From Granulicella sp. WH15 (GTDB taxonomy: Bacteria > Acidobacteriota > Terriglobia > Terriglobales > Acidobacteriaceae), in the NCBI RefSeq assembly GCF_009914315.1, contig NZ_CP042596.1, positions 2,108,001 through 2,172,000 on the forward strand: DNA of 64,000 nucleotides, in the 5' to 3' direction. How positions within the stretch are numbered: the stretch's first letter is position 1; each line of letters starts with the position of its first letter. Below, piece by piece: positions 38,667-56,241 of the stretch. Under the pieces are notes generated by a model. It searched no databases and was not told the DNA's origin. It worked only from the letters and a program-made list of their open reading frames with translations. Made by a program: the position numbers and the translations under genes.

Positions 38667-39881
38667 ATGCTTGCCAACTTTCGCACTCTGTCTCTCCCTG
38701 CATTTCGCGGGCCTGTACTCGTCGATACTTTGGGGCTCCCTAGATATTGGGCTGTCGTATGGGCCGCGTTCCTACCCGCCGATCTTGCACCGGCGACTGT
38801 CAGTAAGAAACTGAGCCAACTTGAAGCTTTCTATCAGCACGCCGACACCCAGCTTGGCCTAGGGCGTTTGGATGATGCGTTGGCTGATTTTGACGTTGAG
38901 GTGCTGAGCACTGCTCTTGAAGGGTACTTTCTGACATTGCGTAATCTGCCGTCATTCACTCCTGCGTCTGAAGATCGGTGGCAGGTAGCTTTGCAGTTCA
39001 TTACGGAGATCGCACAGAGGGTGACACGGAACTACCTTCAGTTGGGGAGTCTGACCGTGCTCAGCGGAAAGTTTGAGCGTCTTGAGCTTCTCCACTCAAA
39101 GTTGCATATTGGGAAACGGAGGCGTCCCGAACAAATTCGCTCTCTTCCTGCTGACGTTGTTGAGTTTCTATATGAACTCTTAGACCCTGAATCCAGAACG
39201 AATCCCTTCCAGAATGAAGTCTCACGATGGAGGGTCTATGTCCTTTTCATCCTTATGCTTCATCAGGGGCTCCGACGAGGCGAACTACTTGTTTTGCCAG
39301 CGGATGCAATAAAGAGCAGCTTTGACCGCGATCTTCAGAAGGAGCGGTTTTGGATGTCGGTCAGATACAACGAATATGAAGATGATCCTCGATCTTCCAA
39401 ACCCTCTATCAAGAACGCACCGTCTATTCGCCAACTTCCAGTGAGCGAAGTAGTCGCGTTGATCGTCCAGGAATATGTCTCCAATTACAGGGGGAGGGTG
39501 GGCCACTCATTCCTAATCAACTCCCAAAAGAGCGCACCCATGTCGCCGGAGGCAGTGTCCAAGACGTTTCAAAAGATTACTAATTCCCTACCCACCAGCT
39601 TACGGAAACTTCTCCTAGATCACACCAGGAATGATTCAGTCACGGCACACGCAATGAGGCACACCTGTGCGGTAGTTCGCCTCAACCAAATTTTAGCGGA
39701 AGGCGTTGAGATGAATGACGCGCTACAGAGGTTACGGGCGTTCTTCGGATGGTCACGAGATTCTGAAATGCCGCTGCGTTACGCCCGCGCTGTGTTCGAA
39801 GATCGGCTGTCATCTGTTTGGAGGAACGAATTTGATGAGCGAGTGTCGGTTCTTAGGTCATTGCCGTCGAGGTTGAAATGA
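38667..39881 (+). CDS. Tyrosine recombinase 1 (Tn554 TnpA-like)
   Basis: 404 residues from the ATG at 38667, with a GGGG-rich ribosome site. An N-terminal SAM-like core-binding domain (about 35-150) precedes the catalytic domain. The catalytic set is nearly complete: Arg in HQGLRRGE (about 203), a likely Lys in PSIKNAP, HAMRHT with His328 and Arg331, Gly-Trp at 361-362 in place of Gly-His (Trp is an accepted variant), and Tyr372 in PLRYAR. It should therefore be an active strand-exchange enzyme. Its stop overlaps the next start as ATGA. The trio arrangement resembles Tn554 tnpA-tnpB and 'recombinase in trio' elements. Confidence 0.85.
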   Translation: MLANFRTLSLPAFRGPVLVDTLGLPRYWAVVWAAFLPADLAPATVSKKLSQLEAFYQHADTQLGLGRLDDALADFDVEVLSTALEGYFLTLRNLPSFTPASEDRWQVALQFITEIAQRVTRNYLQLGSLTVLSGKFERLELLHSKLHIGKRRRPEQIRSLPADVVEFLYELLDPESRTNPFQNEVSRWRVYVLFILMLHQGLRRGELLVLPADAIKSSFDRDLQKERFWMSVRYNEYEDDPRSSKPSIKNAPSIRQLPVSEVVALIVQEYVSNYRGRVGHSFLINSQKSAPMSPEAVSKTFQKITNSLPTSLRKLLLDHTRNDSVTAHAMRHTCAVVRLNQILAEGVEMNDALQRLRAFFGWSRDSEMPLRYARAVFEDRLSSVWRNEFDERVSVLRSLPSRLK

Positions 39882-41383
39882 TACCGATGTCAAAGCGGAA
39901 ACTGGCCTCGGAGTTTCTGGCAAATATTCCACCACTCCCGGCGTCAATAGGTTATTACGACGGCTTTTCTGATTCCTACGGGCAGATTACTGAGCCAAAT
40001 CGCTCTGATCAGTGGCCGGTATCGTTTGATGGGCGTGATGTAACGCTTGACTTTAGTGTTTTTGATACTCAGGTCCGACAGCTCATGAAAAGTTGGTGTG
40101 CTTTACTTTTAAGCCGTCTTTCCCCGGTCACTGCAGAATACTACTTTTACCGGCTATCCACAGTTCCCATTGATCAAATCGAAGAATTGTTGACCTGCAA
40201 TATCCAAGAAATCAAATCAGTATGGAGACAATTGCACGATGAAAATATTCCCTATCCTGTGTTTCAAGCACTTAAGAGTCTCTTATCTTTTCTGTGTACA
40301 CATGGCGTTGGAAACTGGAGACCCGAATGGCTCGATCTAATCTCACAACTACAGTTACCGAAGATCGATAAATATGCTTCGGTCAGGATGGGAAAAGTAT
40401 TCCTGACGGTCGATGAAGAGGCCGCAATCGTGCGGCACATCGATGATCTATGTATTCAGCTTCAGACGCAACAGTCGTCTGTCTCGACTGATCTACTTGA
40501 GGCGTCTGCCATCCTGATGTGTTCTTACCAATTCGGACTGAGGGCCAAGCAAATTGCCATGCTTGAAATGCGGAATATCCGAATTTGGAAGGATGGTCTT
40601 GATGGACACTCCGCAGTTCACCTTACCTTTACGATGATTAAGCAGCGGTCTTCGAACCGAGTCTTTCCAATGGTGCGAAGAGTTAAACGAGAATGGACCC
40701 CATTGTTCATTGAATTATTCGAGAACGCACGAATGCGTGGGCTGGGAGGGGGAGACCATGTTTTTCATCGCACCCCCCTCGAGGTTGGAAAAGTACTTGG
40801 TGACTTGACAGAGTCTTTGTTAAATTCCCGGCGAACGGTGATTGAGCTGCGGCACACAGCAGCTCAGCGACTCGTTGATGCGGGCGCAAGCGAGGAGGAG
40901 CTTGCCGCATTCATGGGACACACAGACCTCAATACCGGTCTGATCTATTTCAGTTCTTCACCTTCGCAGGGAGCCCGTATCAACCAAGCGCTTGGCATTT
41001 CAAAAACCTATCAGAATGTGGTGAAGATTGCTCACGATCGTTTCATTTCTCCAGCGGAGCTGGCTGAGCTGAAAGGTGACCAACAGATCGGCGGCGTCCC
41101 GCATGGGATTCCAATTGCAGGCATTGGTGGTTGCACAGTCGGACAGCCGAGTTGCCCGTACAATCCGGTCACGTCCTGTTATGGGTGCAGTCGATTTATG
41201 CCTGTCGCGGTCGCTGCTATTCATCAGGAGGTACTGAATAATCTGCGTGAGGTTATGAAGCTCTTCTATTCGTCGTCGCACGGAGAGCGCGGCTCGCCGG
41301 CATTTCAGATCGAGAGCACAATCTCTAAGGTGCAAGCAATTCTCGATGAAATCGGAGGCGAACAACATGAACCCATACTTTGA
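39878..41383 (+). CDS. Tyrosine recombinase 2 with C-terminal cysteine cluster
   Basis: 501 residues from ATG 39878 (a second ATG lies nine bases on). The catalytic domain covers about 170-375: Arg222 in QFGLRAKQ, Lys255 in TMIKQRS, then VIELRHTAAQRL, where the box II position of the first His is Ile322 while Arg325 is kept, Gly-His at 347-348 in FMGHTDLNTG and Tyr357. A separate C-terminal module (about 380-490) has Cys419, Cys426, Cys434 and Cys437 in a zinc-finger-like spacing (GGCT...SCPY...SCYGC). The gene overlaps its neighbours by four and 17 bases, so all three recombinases are made from one message. Confidence 0.82.
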   Translation: MIPMSKRKLASEFLANIPPLPASIGYYDGFSDSYGQITEPNRSDQWPVSFDGRDVTLDFSVFDTQVRQLMKSWCALLLSRLSPVTAEYYFYRLSTVPIDQIEELLTCNIQEIKSVWRQLHDENIPYPVFQALKSLLSFLCTHGVGNWRPEWLDLISQLQLPKIDKYASVRMGKVFLTVDEEAAIVRHIDDLCIQLQTQQSSVSTDLLEASAILMCSYQFGLRAKQIAMLEMRNIRIWKDGLDGHSAVHLTFTMIKQRSSNRVFPMVRRVKREWTPLFIELFENARMRGLGGGDHVFHRTPLEVGKVLGDLTESLLNSRRTVIELRHTAAQRLVDAGASEEELAAFMGHTDLNTGLIYFSSSPSQGARINQALGISKTYQNVVKIAHDRFISPAELAELKGDQQIGGVPHGIPIAGIGGCTVGQPSCPYNPVTSCYGCSRFMPVAVAAIHQEVLNNLREVMKLFYSSSHGERGSPAFQIESTISKVQAILDEIGGEQHEPIL

Positions 41384-43796
41384 ATCGTTTATCCGTAATG
41401 CTCGGGCTATTGCCGACGACCGTGGGGTGGAGTGGGAAGTCCCGTTCGGTCCGGACGGTGTTGCTCCAAAAGGTAAAGGGTGGAACTTGACCCGGATGGC
41501 CCAAGCTTCGCCGCCTCCGATTGTATGGATCAATGATTTTGGAACAGATCAGGGAACGGTCAGTGCTCTCAACTCCGATCCGCCGCCGGGGCCTATGCGT
41601 ACCTACGCCAAAAAACCGCTTTCACGAGATTGGCAGGACCTAATCAAAGCGACTGCCATTGACCAGATATTCGTTCGCATGAACACGTGTTCCCACGTGT
41701 CTGGTAATGTCGTGCGCCCATTGCGTGTGTTGGCAACATGTGCTGCCAGCGTAAGCCCGTGGACCCTTACTGTTGACGATATTGCTCTTGCCATCGACAC
41801 CGCTCGCAAGATCCAGGCATCTGGAAAGCTCGCAGACCTTATCTTCGGTGTCGTTAGGAGTGTACTGGACCTCAATCATCTAACCGACAATGGTCCTCTC
41901 TCTCCGTCACTGGAGCGAGACAAGAAAATCCATGTGAGAACGTCTAAGTTCACCAAGTCAATAGGCGATCTGCGATCTGACCTAGAAGAAAGGAAACATG
42001 CTGAGAAACTTCCGGAACGACGAGCGTTCTGGGAGCTGGTTCGGATCGTGTTCACCGAAACGCCGAAGAGTTTCCTCGACGTCCTGCGGTTTGCACAAGC
42101 AAAGACGCTTATTCTATCGGGTCTTCGAGACGGTGAGTGTTCCCTGCTTCCAGCTGACTGGAAAAGATACCGAGAGTATTTCGATACTCGTGATCAAGCA
42201 GGAGATCAAGCCGGAGCAGTTTCGCGCTCCTTGATGCTCAGGCATTTCGCAGAGAAGCAGAGGGTTCAGGGAAAGGATGGGATTGCCCTCTTTGAAACGG
42301 TGCAACATGTTCCAGCGGTATTTGAGGGAGTTCTTGAAAGCACACTGGACAATATTGTCGCGTTGACTGAGCCGCTACGCAGGACTCTCAAGCTACAGCT
42401 TGAAACCGGGCGGAATCTCCCTCAATTCGAGATGGGGGCGTTGGTTCGTGCAGTTGAGCTTTATACCTTCTTGACTGGAAATCCGTTTTTGATTGAACAC
42501 TACAAATCAGAACGCGCCATTTGGGTTACTGAATATCAGAAAAGCTATGATCAAACCATTTTCGAGAAGCTTAGGGCTCATCAACTTAAAGCAATTTATA
42601 AAGGAAGTCGATTGAGCCTGGCAGTCCTTATGTACTTCATGCGTCTTAAGGGAATTCCCTGGCGTAAATCGAATGGAGACATCTGGCAAGGTTCTTGGGA
42701 GGGAACAAAGATATGGTCAGAAGTATATTTTCGCATTGAGGACATTGAAACATATCTCAGTACTCAACTTGTAACGAAGCAATCAGACTTGACGCCGATC
42801 AAACTTTCGACCGGAAATCTTTCAGCGTGGGAAATCCTGTTCCTCATGCCTAAGCGTGCTCTAAGTGATGGCAGGAATGATGGGCTATGCGATGTTACGC
42901 GGTATTGTGCTGTCGGGCGGATGGATCGACAGATGGTTACTCACGCTCTTAGTAGTGGAAAAGCACAGACCATTTTCTCCGTGTATGGGCAAACCGACGA
43001 GGATCGCGCATTGACAGTCCGTCCTCATAGTCTCCGCCATCTGCAGAACACGGAGTTATTCCGGCTGGGGATTGCTGACACCATCATCACCAAGCGGTTT
43101 AACCGGCGGAGCGTAACGCAGAGCTACGATTACGATCACCGGAGTCTCGCGGAAGAGCTGGACCACGTGAGTCTGAAGCCTGACGTGGAAGCTCGTTTAG
43201 GGGAAAAGTCCGCAACCATCGCACGTTTGATAAAGTCCGGTAAGGCGCGTGGGCCCATCGTGGAAGCGTTCAAAAGAATACAGAGCACGAGCGGCGAGGA
43301 TGCTGCAATCGAGTATCTGAGTACCGAAGCGGACGGGTTTCACTCCACGCCCTATGGGCATTGCATCAACAGTTTTACGGTCGATCCCTGCCCGAAGCAT
43401 TTGGAATGTTTCACTGGCTGTAAGCACCTTTCCGCAACCGACCTCTCACAGACGCGGCACAATCTGGTGCAGCTGGAAGCCCGTTTTGAAGTAGCAGTGC
43501 AATCGATTGAAGCTCGGATGTCACGCATCCTGGGCGGAGTAAGCCCGGCTCAGCTCGATACTCACGCCCTTCAGCACGAGGCTTCGACCGCTCTTCAGGT
43601 TGCTGCGCGACCTCTGGAGATCAGTGCGCCAAACGGCATCGGCTTAGAGAACCAGCTGAACCATGCAAAGGTTCGCTTGGCGGGGGTCCGAAAGCTTTTA
43701 GAGACTCGTCCAGGGGAGTTGGTCTTCCCTGACGGCCTTGATTTGTCCCACGACGTCGCGAAGACAAGAGGAACGGTGCTTGATGACGTTCGATGA
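41367..43796 (+). CDS. Large tyrosine recombinase 3 (TnpB/GmtZ-like) with cysteine cluster
   Basis: 809 residues from the ATG at 41367, eight bases after GGAGG. The first 230 residues and the middle are helical and unlike simple integrases. Catalytic residues: Arg254 in SGLRDGE, His554 and Arg557 in PHSLRHLQN, then KRFNRRSVTQSY with Tyr587, where the usual second His is Asn. A C-terminal cysteine module follows (Cys666, Cys675, Cys681, Cys685: GHC...PCPKHLEC..GC), then a coiled-coil-like tail. Large integrases with this HSLRH...FNRRSV...CPKH pattern are known from Tn554 TnpB-type and gamma-mobile-trio-type elements. The exact class is not decidable by eye. Confidence 0.8.
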   Translation: MNPYFESFIRNARAIADDRGVEWEVPFGPDGVAPKGKGWNLTRMAQASPPPIVWINDFGTDQGTVSALNSDPPPGPMRTYAKKPLSRDWQDLIKATAIDQIFVRMNTCSHVSGNVVRPLRVLATCAASVSPWTLTVDDIALAIDTARKIQASGKLADLIFGVVRSVLDLNHLTDNGPLSPSLERDKKIHVRTSKFTKSIGDLRSDLEERKHAEKLPERRAFWELVRIVFTETPKSFLDVLRFAQAKTLILSGLRDGECSLLPADWKRYREYFDTRDQAGDQAGAVSRSLMLRHFAEKQRVQGKDGIALFETVQHVPAVFEGVLESTLDNIVALTEPLRRTLKLQLETGRNLPQFEMGALVRAVELYTFLTGNPFLIEHYKSERAIWVTEYQKSYDQTIFEKLRAHQLKAIYKGSRLSLAVLMYFMRLKGIPWRKSNGDIWQGSWEGTKIWSEVYFRIEDIETYLSTQLVTKQSDLTPIKLSTGNLSAWEILFLMPKRALSDGRNDGLCDVTRYCAVGRMDRQMVTHALSSGKAQTIFSVYGQTDEDRALTVRPHSLRHLQNTELFRLGIADTIITKRFNRRSVTQSYDYDHRSLAEELDHVSLKPDVEARLGEKSATIARLIKSGKARGPIVEAFKRIQSTSGEDAAIEYLSTEADGFHSTPYGHCINSFTVDPCPKHLECFTGCKHLSATDLSQTRHNLVQLEARFEVAVQSIEARMSRILGGVSPAQLDTHALQHEASTALQVAARPLEISAPNGIGLENQLNHAKVRLAGVRKLLETRPGELVFPDGLDLSHDVAKTRGTVLDDVR

Positions 43797-44280
43797 TCAG
43801 AAAGTTAATACCAGCGATGATTCACCTGAAATGGTGCGCATCCTGGAAGAGATGATTGCAGCGGATGTCACAATCACCGCGAGGGCTGTGGCACGAATGC
43901 ACAGCACGGTGAAACACGCTTCTTCGATCATCCGGCACTCGGCTCGCTCTTCCCTGATGGCTCAGTACCAGGAGCGCCAGAAGCAATTCCGGGCAATGCG
44001 AGGCCGGATGCCGAAGCGTTCACTGGATCAGATCGCTGCCCAGATAGTCCAGAAGGATGCTCGCATTGCAGAGTTGGAACGACGGGTAGAAATACTGTCT
44101 GTGTCTCACCTGGCTATGATGCGGGCAGTAGGTGAACTGGGCGGCATCAGCAAATGGCTGAAGTTGTATGCAAATCATCGCGAAATCAGAGACGAGCTCA
44201 ACAAGATGGGTATGCTGCCAAAGACGGATGTGAAGCAATTTCAGATGCCTAAACCCGAAGGGATTGACGATCCAAATTAG
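43783..44280 (+). CDS. Small coiled-coil accessory protein of the recombinase module (TnpC-like)
   Basis: 165 residues from the ATG at 43783, overlapping recombinase 3 by 14 bases. The N-terminal half has a helix-turn-helix-like segment (ITARAVARMHSTVKHASSIIRH), the middle a basic patch (YQERQKQFRAMRGRMPKR) and a clear coiled coil (QIVQKDARIAELERRVEILSVSH, about 92-115). Small DNA-binding coiled-coil proteins close the operon in Tn554 (TnpC) and in other integrase-trio elements. The assignment is by position and general features, not by sequence identity. Confidence 0.7.
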   Translation: MTFDDQKVNTSDDSPEMVRILEEMIAADVTITARAVARMHSTVKHASSIIRHSARSSLMAQYQERQKQFRAMRGRMPKRSLDQIAAQIVQKDARIAELERRVEILSVSHLAMMRAVGELGGISKWLKLYANHREIRDELNKMGMLPKTDVKQFQMPKPEGIDDPN

Positions 44281-44516: not shown

Positions 44517-47297
44517 TTGAACGCCGTTGAAATAGAAGAAGCCATCTCTCAACTGGCGGATCAACCATTCGATCCAGATAATTTTCCATACGTCTTTCTG
44601 GAAGCCTTCGGCAACAAGGAGACAACGATCAAGAGGCTCCGCGCTGGAGCTTCCAACAAGTCCGATCTCGGCGGCGTTCTCCAAACCAACAATATTCATA
44701 TCGCCGTCTGCGACGCTGGACAGGTCACAGAGACGCTCACGGCGTTGAAGGGTAGTCCAGCAACCGCTAAGGCGAAGGCTAAATATGTTCTCGCAACAGA
44801 CGGCGTAGATTTTGAGGCCGAGGAGCTGACAAACGGTGAAACCGTCGCCTGTGCCTACACGGACTTTCCAGACCACTTCGGCTTCTTTCTGCCGCTGGCT
44901 GGCATCACTACCGTCCGGCAGATCACGGAGAACTCATTCGACATTCGAGCAACGAGCCGACTGAACCGGCTTTATCTCGAACTGTTGAAGGACAATCCCG
45001 AGTGGGGTACGGCAGAACGCCGCCACGACATGAACCATTTCATGGCGCGGCTCATCTTCTGTTTTTTCGCCGAGGACACAGACATCTTCATCGGCAAGGG
45101 GCTGTTTACCGACACCATTGTGCAGATGAGCGAACGCGACTCGTCCAATACCCATGAAATCATCGGCGCTCTCTTCCGCTCGATGAATACCAAGACGGCA
45201 GTTCGGGAGTTCGAAGGGATGCCGCGATGGGCCATCTCTTTTCCTTATGTGAATGGCGGCCTCTTCTCAGGAAACATGGATGTGCCGCGATTCAGTAAGA
45301 TTGCGCGATCCTATCTCTTGCACATCGGCAATCTTGACTGGACCAAGATCAACCCCGACATCTTTGGTTCGATGATCCAGGCCGTCGCCGAAGACGAAGA
45401 GCGCGGCGCGCTTGGCATGCACTACACCAGCGTGCCCAATATTCTCAAAGTCCTCAACCCGCTCTTCCTCGACGACCTGCGCTCGAAACTCGCCGAAGCG
45501 GGCGATAACTCCCGCTCCTTGCTCAATCTCCGCAAGCGGATGGCGAAGATTCGTGTTTTCGATCCCGCCTGTGGCTCCGGAAACTTCCTCGTTATTGCGT
45601 ACAAGCAGATGCGCGAGATTGAAGCGGAGATCAACCGGCGGCGTGGAGAGGCTGCGATTCGCAGTGAGATTCCGCTGACCAACTTCCGAGGTATCGAGCT
45701 GCGTGATTTTCCAGCGGAGATTGCCCGACTTGCTCTAGTGATTGCCGAGTACCAAAGTGATGTCTACTATCGCGGACAGAAATTGGCTCTAGCGGAGTTT
45801 CTCCCGCTGAAGGCGGATAACTGGATTACGTGCGGCAATGCGTTACGGCTGAACTGGCTGAGCATCTGCCCGCCAACCGGTATGGGCGTCAAGTTAAAAT
45901 CCGACGATCTATTTAGCACGCCATTGGACCAAGCACAGATTGACTTTGAAAACGAAGGCGGGGAAACATACATCTGCGGGAATCCCCCCTATTTAGGCTC
46001 GAAATGGCAGTCCACGGAGCATAAGGCCGACCTCGCAACGGTATTCGATCACCGAGTGAAGAGCTGGAAATCACTCGATTATGTATCGGGTTGGTTTATT
46101 AAGGCTGCGGATTACGGTCAGCATACCAGCACAGTTTCCGCGTTCGTCGCGACGAACTCCATATGTCAAGGTCAGTCGGTTCCTATCCTTTGGCCCGCAA
46201 TTTTCAAGACTGGCCATCAACTTGCATTCGCTTACACAAGTTTCAAGTGGGCGAATCTCGCAAGCCACAATGCGGGCGTGACCGTTGTCATTGTCGGTCT
46301 CTCCAACCACCCAAGTAAATCCCGACGACTTTTCTCCGTCCTTGACGATGGTGAAGTTGTCGTCAAGGATGTTGAGAATATCAATGGCTATCTCGTTCCG
46401 AGTCAAAACATAGAAGTTTACCCTCTCTCAAGGGCTCCCGATGAACGGTCACCAATGCAGTTTGGTAACCACACCTACTATGGAGTTGACCTGTTGTTCA
46501 GTCGCGCAGAAGCAGCCGACATGATAAGTGTCTGGCCATCAGCATTACGGTTCCTTCGGCCATTCTTGGGCTCTCAGGAAGTAGTGTCTGGGCTACCACG
46601 CTACTGCCTTTGGATATCCAATGGCGAGGTGGACTATGCAAGAGAGATACCTCCCATCGCAGAGCGGCTTAACAAAGTTTCCGCCGCACGCGCGAAGCAG
46701 ACGACGGACAAGGGCGCACAGAAGCTTGCCCGCACTCCACACAAGTTTCGAGAGGAGTTCGTCGCCACATGTCAAGTAGTCGTTATGCCGGCCATCTCCT
46801 CAGAAAACCGGCCATACCTGCCCGTCGCTCTTGTTGATGCGAGACACATCATTGGACACAAATGCTACGCCCTCTACGACGCTGAGCTTTGGAATTTCTC
46901 AATAATGGCGTCGAGTCTACATCGCGTCTGGATTGGAACGGTTTGCGCGCGTATGCGCTCAGACTACTCTTATTCCAACACGCTAGGGTGGAATACCTTC
47001 CCGATTCCTGTACTCACCGAAAAGAACAAGGCCGACCTCACGCGCTGTGCCGAAAATATTGTGCTTGCTCGTGAGCATCATTTTCCCGCCACCATTGCCG
47101 ACCTCTACGATCCAAAAGCCATGCCAGAAGATTTGCGCCAGGCGCACGAGCGCAACGACGAAGTGTTGGAACGCATTTATGTAGGTCGACGTTTCAAAAA
47201 CGACACTGAGCGGTTGGAAAAGCTGTTCGACCTTTATACGAGGATGGCCGCTAAAGCCGATGCCACGCCGAAGCGGAAGCAAGGCGGTGCGGTATGA
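44517..47297 (+). CDS. MmeI-like DNA (adenine-N6) methyltransferase
   Basis: 926 residues from a TTG start with AAGGGGG upstream. The order matches MmeI-type large methyltransferases: helical N-terminal region (1-165), a helical spacer (HFMARLIFCFFAEDTDIF, about 174-191), MTase domain with SAM motif I FDPACGSGNF (348-357) and catalytic motif IV NPPYLGS (489-495, of the N/D-PPY type used by N6-adenine enzymes), then target recognition (about 630-830) and a C-terminal helical domain. The N-terminal part (FGNKETTIKRLRAG, NNIHIAVCDAGQV) is not the MmeI nuclease, and I see no D-x(n)-E-x-K there. Modification is thus likely, with cutting by partner genes. It overlaps the next ORF as ATGA. Confidence 0.88.
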   Translation: MNAVEIEEAISQLADQPFDPDNFPYVFLEAFGNKETTIKRLRAGASNKSDLGGVLQTNNIHIAVCDAGQVTETLTALKGSPATAKAKAKYVLATDGVDFEAEELTNGETVACAYTDFPDHFGFFLPLAGITTVRQITENSFDIRATSRLNRLYLELLKDNPEWGTAERRHDMNHFMARLIFCFFAEDTDIFIGKGLFTDTIVQMSERDSSNTHEIIGALFRSMNTKTAVREFEGMPRWAISFPYVNGGLFSGNMDVPRFSKIARSYLLHIGNLDWTKINPDIFGSMIQAVAEDEERGALGMHYTSVPNILKVLNPLFLDDLRSKLAEAGDNSRSLLNLRKRMAKIRVFDPACGSGNFLVIAYKQMREIEAEINRRRGEAAIRSEIPLTNFRGIELRDFPAEIARLALVIAEYQSDVYYRGQKLALAEFLPLKADNWITCGNALRLNWLSICPPTGMGVKLKSDDLFSTPLDQAQIDFENEGGETYICGNPPYLGSKWQSTEHKADLATVFDHRVKSWKSLDYVSGWFIKAADYGQHTSTVSAFVATNSICQGQSVPILWPAIFKTGHQLAFAYTSFKWANLASHNAGVTVVIVGLSNHPSKSRRLFSVLDDGEVVVKDVENINGYLVPSQNIEVYPLSRAPDERSPMQFGNHTYYGVDLLFSRAEAADMISVWPSALRFLRPFLGSQEVVSGLPRYCLWISNGEVDYAREIPPIAERLNKVSAARAKQTTDKGAQKLARTPHKFREEFVATCQVVVMPAISSENRPYLPVALVDARHIIGHKCYALYDAELWNFSIMASSLHRVWIGTVCARMRSDYSYSNTLGWNTFPIPVLTEKNKADLTRCAENIVLAREHHFPATIADLYDPKAMPEDLRQAHERNDEVLERIYVGRRFKNDTERLEKLFDLYTRMAAKADATPKRKQGGAV

Positions 47298-48025
47298 GAT
47301 TCGCTTTGATCAACGACGAAAGAACAGATCCTCAACCCAAACTGCACGGGCATTGTCCTCATTGTGGCGAAGAAGTTATATCCAAATGCGGCAAAGTAAA
47401 AATTTGGCATTGGGCGCACAAGTCAACGATGGTCTGTGATCCGTGGTGGGAGAATGAGACCGAGTGGCATCGTGCATGGAAGGATAATTTCCCAAAAGAG
47501 TGGCAGGAAATATCCGCTGTCGATGCAGGAACGGGTGAAACGCACATCGCAGACGTGAAAACCTCTCATGGCTTGACCGTAGAATTTCAGCATTCCCCAA
47601 TGCCATTAGAAGAACTGATGGCAAGAGAGAGTTTCTACGGAAACATGATCTGGATTGTTGATGGGCTAAGAAGTGACCTCGACATTAGCTATTTTCAACT
47701 GGGTCTTGGACGCACCCCCGTTCAAACGAATCCTCTCGCATACGGATTTGCATGGTACGGACGTAGCAGAATCATGCATAACTGGTCAGATGCTAAATCT
47801 CGTGTGTTTATAGATTTTGGGAACAGCCTGACCAAAGGCCCTCCAGTTGTTTGGAGGTTGGTCTTCTTTGATAAGGAACAAAAACGAGGAGCTGTCGGAC
47901 CTTATCCGAAGCATCTATTGGTCAAAGCAATCTTGCAGGGACAAGAAATAGGAGTCACCTGCTTACCCACACAGGAAGGCAATATGGCGACACCAGAATC
48001 GGAAAGCCGGAGCGAAAATATATGA
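47294..48025 (+). CDS. CoiA-like PD-(D/E)XK nuclease-family protein
   Basis: 243 residues. The N-terminus has a zinc-binding pair CPHCGEEVI (21-29) followed by WHWAHKS, as in the competence protein CoiA family. Next is ETEWHRAWK (55-63), the conserved helix, and then a PD-(D/E)XK-like core HIADVKTSHG and VEFQHSPM (Asp87, Glu97, Gln99, Ser101). In CoiA this core is 'DV...IEiQ.S'. DNA cleavage or nicking is therefore predicted. The gene is embedded with four-base overlaps between the methyltransferase and the helicase. CoiA proteins act in natural transformation; here the context points to a restriction role. Confidence 0.8.
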   Translation: MRFALINDERTDPQPKLHGHCPHCGEEVISKCGKVKIWHWAHKSTMVCDPWWENETEWHRAWKDNFPKEWQEISAVDAGTGETHIADVKTSHGLTVEFQHSPMPLEELMARESFYGNMIWIVDGLRSDLDISYFQLGLGRTPVQTNPLAYGFAWYGRSRIMHNWSDAKSRVFIDFGNSLTKGPPVVWRLVFFDKEQKRGAVGPYPKHLLVKAILQGQEIGVTCLPTQEGNMATPESESRSENI

Positions 48026-50082
48026 CCGACATCAAAACCATTCCCTCCATTTCTGTCACCTACGCGCATAACGGATATTCGACGAAAGCGAACGCGCTGG
48101 GCATGCGTCCCATGCAGGAGAAAGCGTATGAGAGGCGCGGCGAACAATTTCTGCTCATCAAGTCACCGCCAGCGTCGGGAAAGAGCCGTGCGCTGATGTT
48201 CATTGCGCTCGATAAGCTCGTGCATCAGGGGATAAAGCAAGCGATCATCGTTGTTCCCGAGCGGTCGATCGGCACCAGCTTTCACGACGAGTCCTTGACC
48301 AAATTCGGCTTCTGGGCGGACTGGCATGTGGAACCAAAGTGGAACCTCTGCAACGCTCCGGGTGGCGAGAACGGCGGCAAGGTGAAGGCAGTCGGAGCGT
48401 TTCTTGCAAGCGCAGACGAGGTGTTGGTTTGTACCCACGCAACGTTCCGCTTCGCGGTCGATGAGTATGGCGTTGAAGCGTTCGACGGCCGTCTGATTGC
48501 CGTAGATGAGTTCCACCACGTCTCGTCCAATCCAGACAACAAGCTCGGCCTGCACCTGAGCCAGTTCCTCGCCCGCAATCGCGTGCATCTTGTAGCGATG
48601 ACCGGGTCGTACTTCCGTGGCGACGCCGAGGCCGTGTTGACTCCGCTTGAAGAAGCGAAGTTCGATACAGTTACCTATACCTACTACGAGCAGCTCAATG
48701 GCTACGAGCACCTGAAGCAGCTCGATATGGGCTATTTCTTTTACAGCGGATCATATGTCGATGACATCCTGAACGTGCTCGACTCCTCGGAGAAAACAAT
48801 CATCCATATCCCAAATGTCAATTCGCGCGAGAGCACGAAAGACAAAATAAGGGAGGTGGAGCACATTATCGGAGCTTTAGGTGAATGGCAGGGCGTGGAT
48901 GATGCGACAGGCTTCCAGCTTGTCAAAACACCGGAAGGCAATGTGTTGCGTATTGCCGATCTAGTCGATGATGACGCCGCCCGACGTGATCGCGTCTCCG
49001 CCGCTCTGAAGGACTCGTCGCAGAAACACAATCGGGACTATGTCGATATCATCATCGCGCTCGGAATGGCAAAAGAGGGCTTCGACTGGATTTGGTGTGA
49101 ACACGCCTTGACGGTCGGCTATCGTTCCAGCCTGACGGAGATTGTTCAGATCATCGGTCGAGCCACACGCGATGCCCCAGGCAAGATTCGAGCGCGCTTC
49201 ACTAACCTGATCGCTGAGCCTGATGCATCAGAGGATGCTGTTACCGAAGCGGTGAACGACACTCTGAAAGCCATTGCGGCCAGCCTGCTCATGGAGCAGG
49301 TTCTGGCTCCGCGTTTCGAGTTCAAGCCAAAACATCAGGAGAGTGAACCCGCGCCTGGCTATAGCTATGGAGAGGGTGGCTATGACCCAACGAAGTGTAA
49401 TGTAGGGTTCAACGACCAGACGGGACAGTTCCAGATTGAGATCAAGGGGTTGGCCGAACCTAAGAGCAACGAGGCTGCACGTATCTGCCAGGAAGATTTG
49501 AACGAGGTGATTGCCGCCTTCGTCCAGGAGAAGACTGCCATCGAGCGCGGACTCTTCGATGAAGAACTGGTGCCCGAAGAGCTGACTCAGGTTCGCCTTG
49601 GTAAGATCATCAAAGACAAGTACCCAGAGCTGGATGCCGAAGATCAGGAAGCTGTTCGCCAGCACGCTATTGCCGCTCTCAATCTGACTCAGCAGGCGAA
49701 ACAGTTTGCAGTGGGTGGGAGTGGCGGCAACAACGAGCCTACTGCCAATACCGCTTTGATCGACGGGGTGCGGCGGTTTGCAATGGACATGCGGGAACTC
49801 GATATTGATCTCATCGACCGGATCAACCCGTTCGGGGAAGCTTATGCGATCTTAGCGAAGTCGATGAGCGAAGATAGTCTCAAACAGGTTGCGGCTGCTA
49901 TTGCGGCAAAGCGGACAAGTTTGAGCCCAGAGGAGGCGAAAGAATTGGCGGTACGCGCTCTGAAGTTCAAAAAAGAGCGTGGACGGCTTCCATCTCTTGA
50001 TTCGCAGGATGCTTGGGAGAAGCGCATGGCCGAGGGTGCAGCCGCGTTTGTACGTTATAAGGATGAGGGTCGTTATGAGTGA
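48022..50082 (+). CDS. SF2 DEAD/DEAH-type helicase (restriction-type)
   Basis: 686 residues. The N-terminal RecA-like domain has Walker A SPPASGKSR (48-56), VVPERSIG (Ia), DEFHH at 162-166 as motif II, and AMTGS at 192-196 as motif III. The second domain has GFDWIWC and motif VI QIIGRATRD (376-384). The spacing is that of the UvrB/ResIII-type helicases found in restriction systems. The last 250 residues are helical and charged, without a nuclease motif I can name. ATP-driven DNA translocation is predicted. It starts inside the CoiA-like gene (ATGA) and ends eight bases into the GIY-YIG gene. Confidence 0.9.
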   Translation: MTDIKTIPSISVTYAHNGYSTKANALGMRPMQEKAYERRGEQFLLIKSPPASGKSRALMFIALDKLVHQGIKQAIIVVPERSIGTSFHDESLTKFGFWADWHVEPKWNLCNAPGGENGGKVKAVGAFLASADEVLVCTHATFRFAVDEYGVEAFDGRLIAVDEFHHVSSNPDNKLGLHLSQFLARNRVHLVAMTGSYFRGDAEAVLTPLEEAKFDTVTYTYYEQLNGYEHLKQLDMGYFFYSGSYVDDILNVLDSSEKTIIHIPNVNSRESTKDKIREVEHIIGALGEWQGVDDATGFQLVKTPEGNVLRIADLVDDDAARRDRVSAALKDSSQKHNRDYVDIIIALGMAKEGFDWIWCEHALTVGYRSSLTEIVQIIGRATRDAPGKIRARFTNLIAEPDASEDAVTEAVNDTLKAIAASLLMEQVLAPRFEFKPKHQESEPAPGYSYGEGGYDPTKCNVGFNDQTGQFQIEIKGLAEPKSNEAARICQEDLNEVIAAFVQEKTAIERGLFDEELVPEELTQVRLGKIIKDKYPELDAEDQEAVRQHAIAALNLTQQAKQFAVGGSGGNNEPTANTALIDGVRRFAMDMRELDIDLIDRINPFGEAYAILAKSMSEDSLKQVAAAIAAKRTSLSPEEAKELAVRALKFKKERGRLPSLDSQDAWEKRMAEGAAAFVRYKDEGRYE

Positions 50083-51277
50083 TATTGACCTCGACGAACT
50101 ACGCTCAGAGCTTAGCGACTTTGCGGAGCCGGAGAAGAAGGGCGGGCGCTCTCCGCGCGAAGAGCGCATTATTGCGGGCTTCGAGGAGATTCAACGCTTT
50201 GTCGAGAAACACGAACGCACTCCACAACATGGGGAGGACCGGGACATCTTCGAGAGGATTTACGCTGTCCGCCTCGACCGCTTGCGCTCGCTTGAAGAAG
50301 GGCGTTCGTTGCTCGCACCGCTTGATCATCAGGGATTGCTCTCCAGTCAGCAGACTGTGGCCACAGCCACATCATTAACCGTTGACGACGATGAGTTGCT
50401 CGCCGAACTACAAGTGGCCTCAGGTGGAATCAATATCACCGAATTACGTCATGTCCGTAAGAGTGTCGATAAGCGAGCGGCTGAAGAAATCGCAAATCGT
50501 ATAGTTTGCGAGGATTTTGAGACGTTCAAGCCACTTTTTGAACGAGTACAGAGAGAACTGGCATCTGGTGCTCGCCAGGCAATACCTGTTCAGAGCATGG
50601 ACGAGTTCAGGCTCACTGAGATCAAACAGGGCCAATTCTTCATCGTCGGAGGGCAGGTCGCCTACGTTGCCGACGTCGGCGAGAATTTCAAGACACAGTA
50701 CGACCGCCGCGATAGCCGTTTACGAGTGATCTATGACAATGGCACCGAGAGCAACCTGCTGATTCGCTCCTTCCAGCGTTCGCTCTATCCCGATAAAGAT
50801 AAGGCAGGTCGCCTGATAACGAACCCAGAAGTGGGTCCGTTATTTGCAAACGAACCAGAGGCTGACGACTTGGCGAGTGGAACTATCTATGTTCTCCGCA
50901 GCAAGTCGGAGCACCCAGTAGTCGCGGCCAATCGGAGTGTTCTGCACAAGATCGGCGTTACAGGTGGGAAAGTTGAGACGCGCATAGCCAACGCAAGCCT
51001 AGACCCGACATTCTTAATGGCCGATGTAGATGTAATCGCCACGTATGAACTCTATAACGTCAACCGAATTCGGCTCGAAAATCTGATTCATCGCGTGTTT
51101 GATCCCGCACAGTTGGATATTGAGATCAGGGATCGCTTCGGAAACCCAGTCAAACCGCGCGAATGGTTTCTCGCCCCTCTCTTTATCGTGAATGAAGTAG
51201 TTGAGCGCATAAAGAATGGGACAATCACCCAATATATCTATGATCCGGCGACAGCAAGTCTTGTGAAGACGACGTGA
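50075..51277 (+). CDS. GIY-YIG nuclease of the T5orf172 type
   Basis: 400 residues from the ATG at 50075. The first 260 residues are helical and charged (EERIIAGFEEIQRFVEKHERTPQ, a helicase-associated-domain-like start). The GIY-YIG domain follows: GTIYVLRS (269-276), HKIGVTGGKVETRIANA (291-307, with the catalytic Arg303) and RLENLIHRVF (Glu335 as metal ligand). The second motif's Tyr is replaced by HKIG, as usual in T5orf172 proteins. All residues needed for single-metal DNA cleavage are present. It is the last gene of the four-gene operon and overlaps the helicase gene by eight bases. Confidence 0.88.
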   Translation: MSDIDLDELRSELSDFAEPEKKGGRSPREERIIAGFEEIQRFVEKHERTPQHGEDRDIFERIYAVRLDRLRSLEEGRSLLAPLDHQGLLSSQQTVATATSLTVDDDELLAELQVASGGINITELRHVRKSVDKRAAEEIANRIVCEDFETFKPLFERVQRELASGARQAIPVQSMDEFRLTEIKQGQFFIVGGQVAYVADVGENFKTQYDRRDSRLRVIYDNGTESNLLIRSFQRSLYPDKDKAGRLITNPEVGPLFANEPEADDLASGTIYVLRSKSEHPVVAANRSVLHKIGVTGGKVETRIANASLDPTFLMADVDVIATYELYNVNRIRLENLIHRVFDPAQLDIEIRDRFGNPVKPREWFLAPLFIVNEVVERIKNGTITQYIYDPATASLVKTT

Positions 51278-51486
51278 TGAGGAGTGCTAATTGGCTGGAT
51301 ATATAGAAATTCAACGCGCGGTCGTGTGACCGAGCTGGCGCATCCACTCCACCTAATCCGGAAAACTAAGAAACGCAGAATAACGAACCTCAACAACATG
51401 CACCTAGTCGAGCAGAGCGAGCTGAACTTGACATGCAGAGGCTTTTCTTGGTGCCCAGAGGTGGCCATCTGCGCGATACTGTTGTC

Positions 51487-52020
51487 ATGGTCAGAGCCAC
51501 GCTCATCCCGGTCAGCGAGTACCTTAACACCACCTACCGCCCGGACTGTGACTACATCGACGGCGCAATTGAGGAGCGAAATGTCGGAGAGCGGCCACAT
51601 GCTTTTATGCAATCAATTTTGGTTGCAATCTTCAACGGTAATCGCCGTGCCTGGAATGTGGTCGCAGCTACGGGGCTGCGCGTTCAAACTTCCGTAACGC
51701 GCTATCGAATTCCTGATGTGTGTGTGTTGCGCCGCTCTGATCAGGTCGAGGCGATCGTTTTAGCCGCGCCTCTTGTGTGCATCGAAGTTCTCTCTCCGCG
51801 AGATACGATGAGCTCGATGCAAGAGCGCGTGGATGACTACACTCGCATGGGTGTAGAACATATATGGCTCATCGACCCGGTTAGCCGTCACGCTTACATC
51901 GCTACTGATACTGGCTTTCAGCGTCCATCAGAGGGCGCGTTCACCGTATCCGGTACGCCGATCCGTGTATTGCTCGATGAAGTGTTTGGGGAATTTGATG
52001 AGATGATGTCACAGCTGTGA
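51487..52020 (+). CDS. Uma2-family (DUF820) endonuclease-like protein
   Basis: 177 residues from the ATG at 51487. The Uma2 family is a PD-(D/E)XK-fold group. Here are DCDYIDGAIEERN (about 17-29), RIPDVCVLRRSD (Asp), VCIEVLSPRDTM (Glu/Ser) and YTRMGVEHIWLIDPVSRHAY, the family's full set, so an active site is probable. Members are very abundant in cyanobacteria and Acidobacteriota, and their function is uncertain. It lies 209 bp after the GIY-YIG gene on the same strand and may have its own promoter. Earlier in-frame starts from 51433 lack support. Confidence 0.85.
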   Translation: MVRATLIPVSEYLNTTYRPDCDYIDGAIEERNVGERPHAFMQSILVAIFNGNRRAWNVVAATGLRVQTSVTRYRIPDVCVLRRSDQVEAIVLAAPLVCIEVLSPRDTMSSMQERVDDYTRMGVEHIWLIDPVSRHAYIATDTGFQRPSEGAFTVSGTPIRVLLDEVFGEFDEMMSQL

Positions 52021-52168
52021 GTCAATGTCCTGTTTGTGCAAGGCGTTCCACATTCCCAAGAGGAACGGATAGCCGTCGCCAAGGTGAGAGCCGCGAGGTA
52101 ATCAGCGTGGGGTGGTTTTGCCAAAGAGCAAAGACAGAAAATTTCATAAACTATAGAAGGAGGCACTA

Positions 52169-52387
52169 ATGAGCGCATCAACGGGCGAGTTTTCAGTTCC
52201 AGCCACGCAGATCGACCCCGCCGAACGTGCGCGGCGTATCGCAGCCGTGCAGTCCGCAACCGGACACCTCCGCATGGAAGGTATGTACGCTTCGCCTCTG
52301 GCCCTCGCGCTTCAACAGCGTTATATCGACGGCGAGATAACGCTTGAGGAAGCTCGCAATGCGCTACTCGCTCCCTATAACCGCTAA
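52169..52387 (+). CDS. VbhA-like antitoxin, copy 1
   Basis: 72 residues from ATG 52169 with AAGGAGGC eight bases ahead. The middle (RRIAAVQSATGHLRMEGMYASP) and the C-terminal YIDGEITLEEA follow the layout of the antitoxin VbhA family, whose inhibitory helix blocks Fic AMP-transferases. The VbhA core (S/T)xxxE(G/N) is only partly met: Glu-Gly is present, but the residue four positions before is His. No Fic-domain gene (HPFxxGNG) lies in the window. The second copy follows 357 bp later. Confidence 0.7.
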   Translation: MSASTGEFSVPATQIDPAERARRIAAVQSATGHLRMEGMYASPLALALQQRYIDGEITLEEARNALLAPYNR

Positions 52388-52525
52388 TGGGACTGAGCGA
52401 GTAGCTACCCAGCTTGCGAAGCATGAGCGAAGCCGTCATGGTGCCCTGCTTGGTGGAAGTGGCGCGAGTTGAGCTTTATCAAAGGGCAAAGACAGAGAAC
52501 CTCTAAACTATAGAGGGGGGTATTA

Positions 52526-52744
52526 ATGAGCACACTAAGGGGTGTGTTTCCAGTCCCAGCCACGCAGATCGACCCCGCCGAACGTGCGCGGCGTATCGCA
52601 GCCGTGCAGTCCGCAACGAGACACCTCCGCATGGAAGGTTTGTACGCTTCGCCTTTCGCTAACGCCCTTGAGCAGCGTTACATCGAAGGCGAGATAACGG
52701 ATGCGGAAATCCTGCACGAACTGCTTGCTCACCATCGTCGCTGA
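52526..52744 (+). CDS. VbhA-like antitoxin, copy 2
   Basis: 72 residues from ATG 52526 with GAGGGGGG ahead. It is a close duplicate of copy 1. Residues from VPATQIDPAERARR through AVQSAT are identical, and a run of about 60 bases in this part is unchanged. Differences gather at the N-terminus and in the last 20 residues (YIEGEITDAEILHELLAHHRR). Like copy 1 it has no neighbouring Fic toxin gene. Confidence 0.7.
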   Translation: MSTLRGVFPVPATQIDPAERARRIAAVQSATRHLRMEGLYASPFANALEQRYIEGEITDAEILHELLAHHRR

Positions 52745-52844
52745 TGGGACTGAGCGAGTAGTCGATGGCTGAAGGAAATTGATCGTTCTTCCTGGAGTGC
52801 CCGGCTTGAGATATGCCAGTGGAGAAGGAGATGTGAATGAAGGA

Positions 52845-54385: not shown

Positions 54386-54610
54386 ATGGCTAAGCGACCC
54401 CGTGATCTGAACCAACTGGCGAAGATGGTGGTAGACATTGCGATTGGGGAGGCCGAGGACACTGAGAGCGCAAAGATGCGATCTCCTGAAAGTGTCCGGG
54501 GCCGCAGTGGAGGCTTAAAAGGCGGCAAGGCAAGGGCTGCGGCCTTACCACCCGACAAATTGGCGGATATTGCGCGTTTAGCCGCTACTGCTCGCTGGAA
54601 GAAAAGCTAG
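54386..54610 (+). CDS. Small basic protein, unknown
   Basis: 74 residues from ATG 54386 (GGGAACATGG context). The C-terminal half has a Gly/Lys/Ala-rich pattern RGRSGGLKGGKARAAALPPDKLADIARLAATARW, seen in small nucleic-acid-binding proteins encoded near restriction and toxin genes, as I recall. The function is unknown. The stop overlaps tail to tail with the gene on the other strand by four bases (54607-54610). It is the first gene inside the left inverted repeat. Confidence 0.65.
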   Translation: MAKRPRDLNQLAKMVVDIAIGEAEDTESAKMRSPESVRGRSGGLKGGKARAAALPPDKLADIARLAATARWKKS

Positions 54611-55098
54611 CTAATTTTCGCGATCTCCACAACTTCATCAGCAGCTCTCCGCTCTGCAACGTCTTGCGACAGGTTGGTCACGAACTGCAGCTCCATCTGA
54701 CGGGGGTTCATTCGGTTCCAGTGCTCAGCAGTATTAACACCGACGATAGCCTCGCTGACCATCTGTTCTCTGTAATGATGCAGACCTTTGAGCATCTGTG
54801 CGCGCGAGGCCTCGTCTACATCGAACCAAAACCAAAGCTGCTTACCGTCGGAGTTCTTCCTGGCGTAAGCGAGGTTTGCTTTATAGACCTTGTTGGTTAC
54901 CTTGTCGTGCCGTGTCTCTTCTCTAGCCGCGTCTGCGAACTGTTTAGCGAAGATTTCCATGGGGTCGATAGGTTTTGGTAACGGCCATCCCATCTGCCTC
55001 GCCATCTCGGCGACTTCTTGCATCGTCGCTTCGCTGGTTCCCTTGACCTTACGAACGTGCCTGATGAAAGCTTGCCGTCTCTGAATAGCTGTGGACAT
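54607..55098 (-). CDS. Unknown partner of the Xre-ImmA/IrrE protein
   Basis: 163 residues. The N-terminus is basic and helical (IQRRQAFIRHVRKVKGTSEATMQEVAEMARQMGWPLPKP). The middle has LWFWFDVDEASRAQMLKGLHHYREQMVSEA, and the end is helical (MELQFVTNLSQDVAERRAADEVVEI). No family recognised. It follows the Xre-ImmA gene by nine bases on the same strand, so the two are almost certainly expressed together as a toxin-antitoxin-like or regulatory pair. Confidence 0.75.
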   Translation of the reverse strand: MSTAIQRRQAFIRHVRKVKGTSEATMQEVAEMARQMGWPLPKPIDPMEIFAKQFADAAREETRHDKVTNKVYKANLAYARKNSDGKQLWFWFDVDEASRAQMLKGLHHYREQMVSEAIVGVNTAEHWNRMNPRQMELQFVTNLSQDVAERRAADEVVEIAKIS

Positions 55099-55107
55099 TA
55101 GTTCTCC

Positions 55108-56241
55108 TTATCCTTCGATTTGTGCGACATCACCCCAGCCATCATGTTCGGCAGTTGGCAGGATGATGGAGCGAATGTTTACAAGGTGGTTTCTGAATAG
55201 TTCATATCTATTGGTTCGGTGCTGCAACTGACCGGCGACAATACCCGGATGAACTTGTAGGGTTGCTGCAAACCCGCGAATGTCACGCTCCGCGAAAACC
55301 GGGGCTTTTCTTGCAATGAAGTCAACTAGCCTGTCGCTGGGTACGCAAAACTCTGCTGCCGCATGATTGGCCAGTTGCTCCTCCTCTGGGATATCCGACA
55401 CAGATGCGGTCTTCTCCATGTCTGTGTCGAGACGAACCTGCCCTTGACCGTGCTCCCTAAGCACATGCTCGATTTCGTGCCGCAGGACGAACCAAAAGTT
55501 GTCAATTCGATCAAACCGCAGACTGACACCAACAACGGGCTTCGTCGAATCTAGCCAACAGCAAACGCCGTCAATCCGGGCGGCGGGGAGGGACTCGACG
55601 ATTACAAATCGAACTCCGGCTTCCATCATGATGCGTGGCACCTTGCTGATGGCGTCAGCAGAAACTAACAATGCTTTCAGTTTTCCGAGTGCCGCCTCAA
55701 GCTTATGTTGAGAATATTTCGGCGCGGGGTAGTCGGCAGCTATTTGGCGGACACGATACAGCCATGCCAATTGCGCTGGTGATGCGTCTGAATCAGACGC
55801 CGTCTTTTTGGCGGCGTGCGGCAGCACCTCAATCTCATCAATGGATTTCGCCTTGAAGAATGTACAGATAGCACTATCGAGGTTCGGATCCCAAAGGTCG
55901 CGTACGCCGGGGAGCCAACCTCGTGAAATCATCTCGGACACCGGTAGGTCGCCAAACACGGTTGCTCGCGTGGTCAGGGCAGGATCAAGCCTGAAAGCAA
56001 GCTGCGCCTTCTTCAGTTCAAACGATGCCTGAAGCTTCAGCAGGCTGTCCGCATCCACCGCTAATGCTGCCTGGAGTTGAAGAGCCAACTCATTACTGAT
56101 TTTCGTTCGACCGTTCATGAATGAACTAACCGTTTTTTCTGATACTCCTAACACCATTGCCAACGCTCGCTGTGACCAACCGCGCTCGCGAAGGCGAGCT
56201 TCAATCATTTGGCCGGGAGTCACAAACTCAACTTCTCTCAT
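55108..56241 (-). CDS. Xre-type regulator fused to ImmA/IrrE-family metallopeptidase
   Basis: 377 residues. Residues 10-65 are a Cro/C1-type helix-turn-helix (GWSQRALAMVLGVSEKTVSSFMNGR) of the HigA kind. A linker (about 80-190) leads to the COG2856 peptidase domain with zinc motif HEIEH (255-259) and the downstream EEQLANHAAAEF, where the third ligand is expected. Such proteins bind and cleave repressors or act in toxin-antitoxin modules. Together with the gene nine bases downstream it forms one operon, divergent from the transposase gene across 99 bp, so it may repress both. Confidence 0.85.
   Translation of the reverse strand: MREVEFVTPGQMIEARLRERGWSQRALAMVLGVSEKTVSSFMNGRTKISNELALQLQAALAVDADSLLKLQASFELKKAQLAFRLDPALTTRATVFGDLPVSEMISRGWLPGVRDLWDPNLDSAICTFFKAKSIDEIEVLPHAAKKTASDSDASPAQLAWLYRVRQIAADYPAPKYSQHKLEAALGKLKALLVSADAISKVPRIMMEAGVRFVIVESLPAARIDGVCCWLDSTKPVVGVSLRFDRIDNFWFVLRHEIEHVLREHGQGQVRLDTDMEKTASVSDIPEEEQLANHAAAEFCVPSDRLVDFIARKAPVFAERDIRGFAATLQVHPGIVAGQLQHRTNRYELFRNHLVNIRSIILPTAEHDGWGDVAQIEG

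Follow-up and report, generated by a model that had tools for sequence, protein, structure and literature searches.

A putative mobile restriction-modification operon of the DnmA-YeeB-YeeC family in Granulicella sp. WH15, with a CoiA-like gene in a variable slot

The closest described counterparts of the locus reported here are the DnmA-YeeB-YeeC (yeeABC) genes of Bacillus subtilis and its relatives. According to passages of PMC7261158 and PMC9973331, B. subtilis DnmA produces N6-methyladenine (m6A) at the non-palindromic sequence GACGAG and is without the endonuclease motif of MmeI, and dnmA, yeeB and yeeC were earlier proposed as a Type I-like restriction-modification (RM) system and as genes of defence islands. 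In the same passages the three genes gave no protection against three phages in B. subtilis, single deletions of dnmA, yeeB or yeeC left growth unharmed, and deletions of dnmA and yeeB in Vibrio crassostreae reportedly raised the sensitivity to some phages. A neighbouring 'uncharacterized' family is described in PMC9973331 as a possible further member in some bacteria; CoiA is not mentioned in those passages. Here we describe an operon of Granulicella sp. WH15 (Acidobacteriota; genome in one contig of 4.67 Mb), at 44517-51277 of the 64,000-nucleotide stretch that was analysed (the window; NZ_CP042596.1, positions 2,108,001 to 2,172,000), in which a CoiA-like gene lies between a methyltransferase and a helicase gene of this type.

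Four open reading frames (ORFs), all intact, follow one another on the plus strand with successive overlaps of 4, 4 and 8 bases:

44517..47297, plus strand: MmeI-family DNA methyltransferase with target recognition domain (TRD), DnmA/YeeA type, N-terminal nuclease motif lost; TTG start, 926 aa
47294..48025, plus strand: CoiA-like protein (CoiA N-terminal domain and predicted PD-(D/E)XK-like core), occupant of the variable slot; 243 aa
48022..50082, plus strand: superfamily 2 (SF2) helicase/translocase, YeeB type, with DEAD domain; 686 aa
50075..51277, plus strand: GIY-YIG (T5orf172/MUG113) nuclease-like protein, YeeC type; 400 aa from the ATG at 50075, which was used in place of the start at 49979 in a mechanical ORF list

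An earlier note on this DNA, made from the letters alone, had described four overlapping genes with their key motifs, and ORF coordinates, Pfam and alignments bear this out. The note could not place the set in any named system. Three of the four genes can now be assigned to the DnmA-YeeB-YeeC family, for which passages of PMC7261158 and PMC9973331 consider an RM function resembling Type I.

Methyltransferase, helicase and GIY-YIG genes in this order indicate the DnmA-YeeB-YeeC operon family, an assignment made from domains, gene order and the names of relatives. A methyltransferase without nuclease motif, an SF2 helicase, a T5orf172/GIY-YIG protein, their order and a mobile context are common to both; the difference is the CoiA-like gene, inserted here after the methyltransferase, with the helicase and T5orf172/GIY-YIG genes following downstream in the family order. 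Relatives of the helicase carry the name YeeB in public records; the helicases on Bacillota plasmids are 41-42% identical to it, and entries from Bradyrhizobium and Cupriavidus 85%. The helicase was matched in 260 of 72,556 plasmid records and in 7 of the 396 genomes from the same phylum as the host (its own genome included), and 43 loci with the helicase system were returned from IMG/VR. The search for the same gene order in other genomes, which the earlier note had proposed, recovered the core order in dozens of Acidobacteriota, plasmid and IMG/VR loci, while the position of CoiA proved variable. On plasmid pP76 of Pediococcus pentosaceus (7677 bases; L106, in our numbering of loci), the core methyltransferase, helicase and GIY-YIG genes are the only annotated genes. 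A phage origin was rejected, the helicase being matched in 2 of 50,697 phage records, each match covering 26% of it.

The junction between methyltransferase and helicase could be compared in 64 loci, all readable at both ends and none selected for carrying CoiA there: 17 are filled, 3 are unclear (L091, L171, L179) and 44 are empty, where empty means a gap of at most 160 nt from the methyltransferase stop to the extrapolated helicase start. The largest gap among the empty loci is 136 nt (L102, with a tiny ORF annotated there). The count leaves aside the window, L005-L009 (picked for CoiA), L150 and L169 (cargo before the helicase, no methyltransferase seen), loci with the methyltransferase not found or outside the contig, and 15 loci that are short or partial, namely 14 that repeat longer stretches and L094, one half of a system divided between two contigs. 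Retained in it are L049, which the CoiA scan had supplied, and a small number of loci whose methyltransferase is shortened or interrupted (e.g., L097, L156, L157). The plasmid loci are 25 of the 260 matching records, picked for diversity; all 43 from IMG/VR were taken. Clustering at 95% helicase identity gave 15 filled and 40 empty clusters, with both states in one cluster.

The junction between helicase and GIY-YIG gene served as control. No inserted gene was found there in 69 measured loci not selected for CoiA, and Fisher's exact test of 17/64 against 0/69 gave 1.1e-6, an indicative value only, as the loci are related. Among 73 measured loci the overlap is exactly 8 bases in 42; apart from a single gap of 119 bases, the rest are at most 11, the gap of L191 lying outside the measured set. 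The small ORF annotated at this junction in L156 is an N-terminal piece of the GIY-YIG protein.

The slot between methyltransferase and helicase holds unrelated families (Pfam above cut-off unless otherwise stated):

CoiA_N: L168
YhcG/DUF1016: L177; also L150 (no methyltransferase seen)
RhuM: L176
PDDEXK_4: L191
FRG and DUF3800: L196
SLFN_AlbA_2: L148
RelB: L092
RelE/ParE-type pair: L101 (from record annotation)
Mrr, directly before the helicase: L169 (no methyltransferase seen)
AAA_15: L006
PLD-like: L145 (below cut-off)

The cargo of L096, L147/L167, L089, L185 and L199 and the first cargo gene of L148 gave no Pfam match above cut-off. In a PADLOC scan of 16 cargo proteins, 7 matched strongly (E below 1e-20), 2 weakly and 7 not at all. 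The strong matches are YhcG twice (PDC-S02), Mrr (mREase_IV, PDC-S02), RhuM (PDC-S05), PDDEXK_4 (PDC-S26), FRG (PDC-S15) and the AAA protein (AriA). Three genomes of the window's own genus display three states of the slot: CoiA, a 127-aa protein of no known family (L089) and empty (L090). Taken together, these comparisons indicate that CoiA is not part of the core and occupies an exchangeable slot. The fixed four-gene system envisaged earlier is not what the family shows, as the CoiA position is variable and the full order of methyltransferase, CoiA, helicase and GIY-YIG was seen outside the window in L007, L008, L009 and L168. L006 has an additional gene, the contig of L005 ends before the GIY-YIG gene, and no helicase is visible in L010.

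Closely related backbones argue for exchange of the slot content, beyond mere loss. The slot of L176 holds RhuM, and those of its relatives L174, L175 and L186 have a 97-nt gap and no gene. The DNA of L176 is 90-91% identical to theirs over helicase and GIY-YIG genes and 87-94% in the upstream part; the identity drops to 75-81% over the final 360 bases of the methyltransferase gene. In the case of L006 and L168, the helicase proteins are 96% identical and the CoiA proteins only about 55% over the 124 residues compared. The AAA gene that follows CoiA in L006 is preceded by 46 bp of helicase start and 51 bp of the region near the methyltransferase end, both matching L168, and this insert is a scar built from the slot's own borders. 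On a helicase tree of 80 rows, 71 of them labelled, at least 22 changes of slot content, at least 15 between filled and empty and at least 5 between CoiA and other states are required; the tree was built quickly under a site-homogeneous model and carries long-branch warnings, and L091, L171, L179, L150 and L169 were scored as filled.

CoiA_N is matched by the second gene at 36.8 bits (cut-off 26.3), CoiA_nuc at 13.6 bits, below its cut-off of 20.3; the protein has no match in PADLOC. The CoiA of L010, an uncultured Terriglobus, is 81% identical over 161 residues. In the CoiA tree, from which L036 is omitted, seven CoiA proteins fall in one clade (SH-aLRT 97), each directly after a DnmA-type methyltransferase, and that of L168 is placed elsewhere. 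The helicases of the six CoiA-clade loci that have one were rejected as a single clade (p-AU 4e-8), and the CoiA label requires 5 changes on a helicase tree of 34 rows, about as many as shuffled labels (5.7). Since the CoiA and helicase trees disagree, CoiA has a history of its own; joint transfer, which had been suggested for all four genes, fits the core. Among 80 loci found by CoiA similarity, 73 have no methyltransferase, helicase or GIY-YIG match in the stretch examined, and in L049 such matches lie only on the other strand, more than 5 kb away. Passages of PMC9519451 describe a CoiA-domain protein and a DUF6575 protein, two kinds of cargo that also occur in the present family, as parts of functional anti-phage systems of Escherichia coli. 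The CoiA domain is common to the former protein and ours, likened by domain description, and the passages show no tie of the E. coli system to the DnmA-YeeB-YeeC operon.

The methyltransferase matches MmeI_N, MmeI_hel, MmeI_Mtase (387 bits), MmeI_TRD and MmeI_C of Pfam, all above cut-off, the PADLOC model PDLC03598 REase_MTase_IIG at 910 bits and, from residue 88 on, the MmeI structure 5hr4. It thus has methyltransferase, target recognition and C-terminal domains in common with MmeI and the Type IIL/IIG enzymes. Nevertheless, it is without the D-x9-ExK (PD-ExK) motif, which is absent at the aligned place from all 17 helicase-linked methyltransferases (the window and 16 others) and kept in all six MmeI relatives in which no helicase is visible. 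These six have no helicase or GIY-YIG match in the 6.3 to 20 kb stretches examined; the contigs of two, L141 and L142, end about 1.1 kb and less than 20 bases after the gene, and a helicase beyond is possible. A D-x-(E/D)xK-like string occurs elsewhere in the N-terminus of 4 of the 17. As the motif is missing, the PADLOC label is misleading and a plain Type IIG/IIL (MmeI) enzyme is ruled out; any DNA cut should come from the GIY-YIG protein, CoiA or both.

The third and fourth proteins have their key residues conserved. For the helicase, DEAD is above the Pfam cut-off and ResIII and Helicase_C are below, and Walker A, DEFHH and most of QIIGRATRD are invariant in 27 sequences. The GIY-YIG protein matches MUG113 and T5orf172 above cut-off, with K292, G294, R303 and E335 in all 74 aligned rows, the first tyrosine of the GIY motif being left unscored. 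The proposal of two separate nuclease-like proteins, with conserved residues, is supported. Among the 120 helicase homologues in the matches listed, 10 carry DUF6575 fused to the N-terminus (from precomputed domains, one confirmed).

Three sets of close relatives, L099/L164, L159/L160 and L176 with L174, L175 and L186, are 83-94% identical in DNA over most of the operon outside the TRD. The only methyltransferase stretch that cannot be aligned at the DNA level covers approximately residues 591-791, 596-784, and 609-820 or 511-813 (window numbering), and Pfam places the TRD at residues 629-832 of the window protein. TRDs appear to have been swapped between close relatives. Divergence confined to the TRD is the trace expected from diversifying selection on an active recognition system, and L099/L164, L159/L160 and L176/L186 are natural pairs for reading specificity.

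The ratio of nonsynonymous to synonymous substitution rates (dN/dS), with synonymous sites near saturation, is 0.06 for CoiA and 0.05 for the helicase between the window and L005, and 0.04 and 0.02 between L007 and L009, which points to purifying selection in close four-gene relatives. Because of this selection, the recurrence of the core order in dozens of loci and the family-wide 8-base overlap, the operon is more than a chance arrangement.

We judge it moderately probable that the locus is a mobile, split, motor-driven RM operon belonging to the DnmA-YeeB-YeeC family, in which an accessory nuclease gene is embedded, and the restriction-like logic read into it earlier is supported. The sequences show the order of the genes, their motifs, the missing nuclease motif of the methyltransferase, the variable slot, the divergent TRDs and the selection; what the proteins do here, from m6A specificity and translocation to cutting, phage restriction and the role of CoiA, is inferred. 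The methyltransferase would recognise an asymmetric site through its TRD and mark one strand with m6A; the helicase would be an ATP-driven motor that works on DNA whose sites are unmodified, with the GIY-YIG protein as core cutter. Single-strand methylation together with a motor that compares sites is found in Type III/ISP enzymes. For a site methylated on one strand only, it would make sense for a site-comparing motor to keep host DNA safe just after replication. Recombination would refill the slot that separates the modification gene from the motor gene, with cargo of which several are nuclease- or toxin-like and much is of no known family, and the CoiA-like protein would most likely add a further means of attacking invading DNA.

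How tightly CoiA is tied to the core bears on one rival explanation, in which CoiA is a dedicated fourth subunit recruited by the methyltransferase-helicase complex for cutting or trimming, and the operon a distinct four-component restriction type. The DUF6575-helicase fusions and the seamless overlaps suggest coupling, those fusions (10 of 120 listed) arguing that one added part or more is physically coupled; 4-base overlaps on both sides of CoiA, the clade of seven CoiA all directly after such a methyltransferase and strong purifying selection point the same way. The variety of cargo suggests independence. Against a dedicated subunit, 44 of 64 loci are empty, unrelated families stand in the same place, and 73 of 80 CoiA-similarity loci are without a core match, L049 having its matches only on the opposite strand and more than 5 kb off. 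We hold a dedicated subunit to be unlikely, with an appreciable chance all the same. It is distinctly unlikely that the operon is decayed or regulatory, its restriction gone and an orphan methyltransferase kept for gene regulation. Such is the conclusion of PMC9973331 for B. subtilis, in the passages concerned, but all four genes are intact here, dN/dS is well below 1 in close four-gene relatives, the key residues of helicase and GIY-YIG protein are invariant, and TRD swapping is expected under selection by invaders and less so for a fixed regulatory mark.

A cluster that mainly stabilises its mobile element by selfish post-segregational killing, and does not defend the host, would fit its presence on plasmids (a helicase match in 260 of 72,556 records), one of them of 7.7 kb with only these three annotated genes, and the toxin-antitoxin genes in or beside some loci. 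The unharmed growth of B. subtilis after deletion of any one of dnmA, yeeB and yeeC (in the passages cited above) is unlike the effect of a killing module, and 7 of 16 scanned cargo proteins match PADLOC models of defence or defence candidates strongly; selfish killing is highly improbable.

Known systems were also compared. DISARM was rejected, as CoiA, helicase, GIY-YIG protein, the Uma2-family protein described below, a 413-aa gene and the ORFs at 39878, 41346 and 43738 have no Drm match in PADLOC; DISARM class 1 (DrmMI) has a related methylase domain, the methyltransferase reaching 108 bits with DrmMI and 910 with the IIG model. BREX was rejected since only the shared methylase domain matches, and the main text of a 2026 BREX survey has no mention of MmeI, T5orf172, GIY-YIG, CoiA, YeeA or YeeB. 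The helicase gave only weak PbeA and Cas3 matches in PADLOC. PADLOC, NCBIfam and Pfam contain no model for the whole four-gene set and name only the methyltransferase, CoiA_N, DEAD and T5orf172/MUG113.

Embedding of defence genes in other systems has been described for Type I RM (TgvAB, DarTG2) and Hma; unrelated defence genes lie between modification and motor genes there as here, and the core proteins differ. No report of embedding inside the DnmA-YeeB-YeeC operon was found in our searches of open-licence papers. A bolder and rather unlikely extension of the embedded-nuclease reading is a plug-in restriction platform, in which a shared recognition-motor core recruits interchangeable effector nucleases from one slot (CoiA, YhcG, Mrr, PDDEXK_4 and PLD-like proteins and DUF6575 fusions being the candidates), and TRD and cutting chemistry are swapped independently, outpacing phage counter-defence. 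The core occurs in several phyla and on many plasmids, yet its best-studied member showed no restriction, and the slot offers one explanation of how activity might be overlooked when a single genotype is tested. Related backbones with a different slot or TRD (L176 and L186; L006 and L168) are natural experiments on whether core or cargo defends, and the slot is a further site for finding defence genes through 'guilt by embedding'.

A mobile or island setting had likewise been proposed, and is supported by the fall in GC content near 38 kb of the window, from 0.58-0.65 to about 0.50-0.55, and by three consecutive tyrosine-recombinase-like genes directly upstream of the operon:

38667-39881, plus strand: tyrosine-recombinase-like gene, Phage_integrase (Pfam) above cut-off
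39878-41383, plus strand: tyrosine-recombinase-like gene, Phage_integrase above cut-off
41346-43796, plus strand: tyrosine-recombinase-like gene, Phage_integrase below cut-off
43738-44280, plus strand: small ORF

Together these genes (38667..44280) are probably the mobility module of the island. The third recombinase-like gene and the CoiA gene are each single copy in the host genome. Sequence close to the same system on a plasmid of Pseudomonas aeruginosa (L102) is weakly similar to the first and third recombinase genes (27% and 30%). For the island borders, the flanking genes thiD and fhs were looked for in 41 genomes from the genus (own included) and matched in 40 and 13 of them, respectively; the listed matches were never near each other in any other of these genomes, so that no empty island site was obtained. 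A search for terminal repeats of the island gave nothing convincing.

Downstream of the operon by 155 bases lies a gene for a Uma2-family putative restriction endonuclease (51433-52020, plus strand; PADLOC candidate family PDC-S03), which was counted as outside it. A 258-base sequence is present in two direct copies (52147-52404 and 52504-52761), 83% identical and with starts 357 bases apart. At 54607-56241, on the minus strand, a helix-turn-helix and IrrE/M78 peptidase-like gene stands beside a gene of 163 aa without Pfam match, possibly a toxin-antitoxin or regulator pair.

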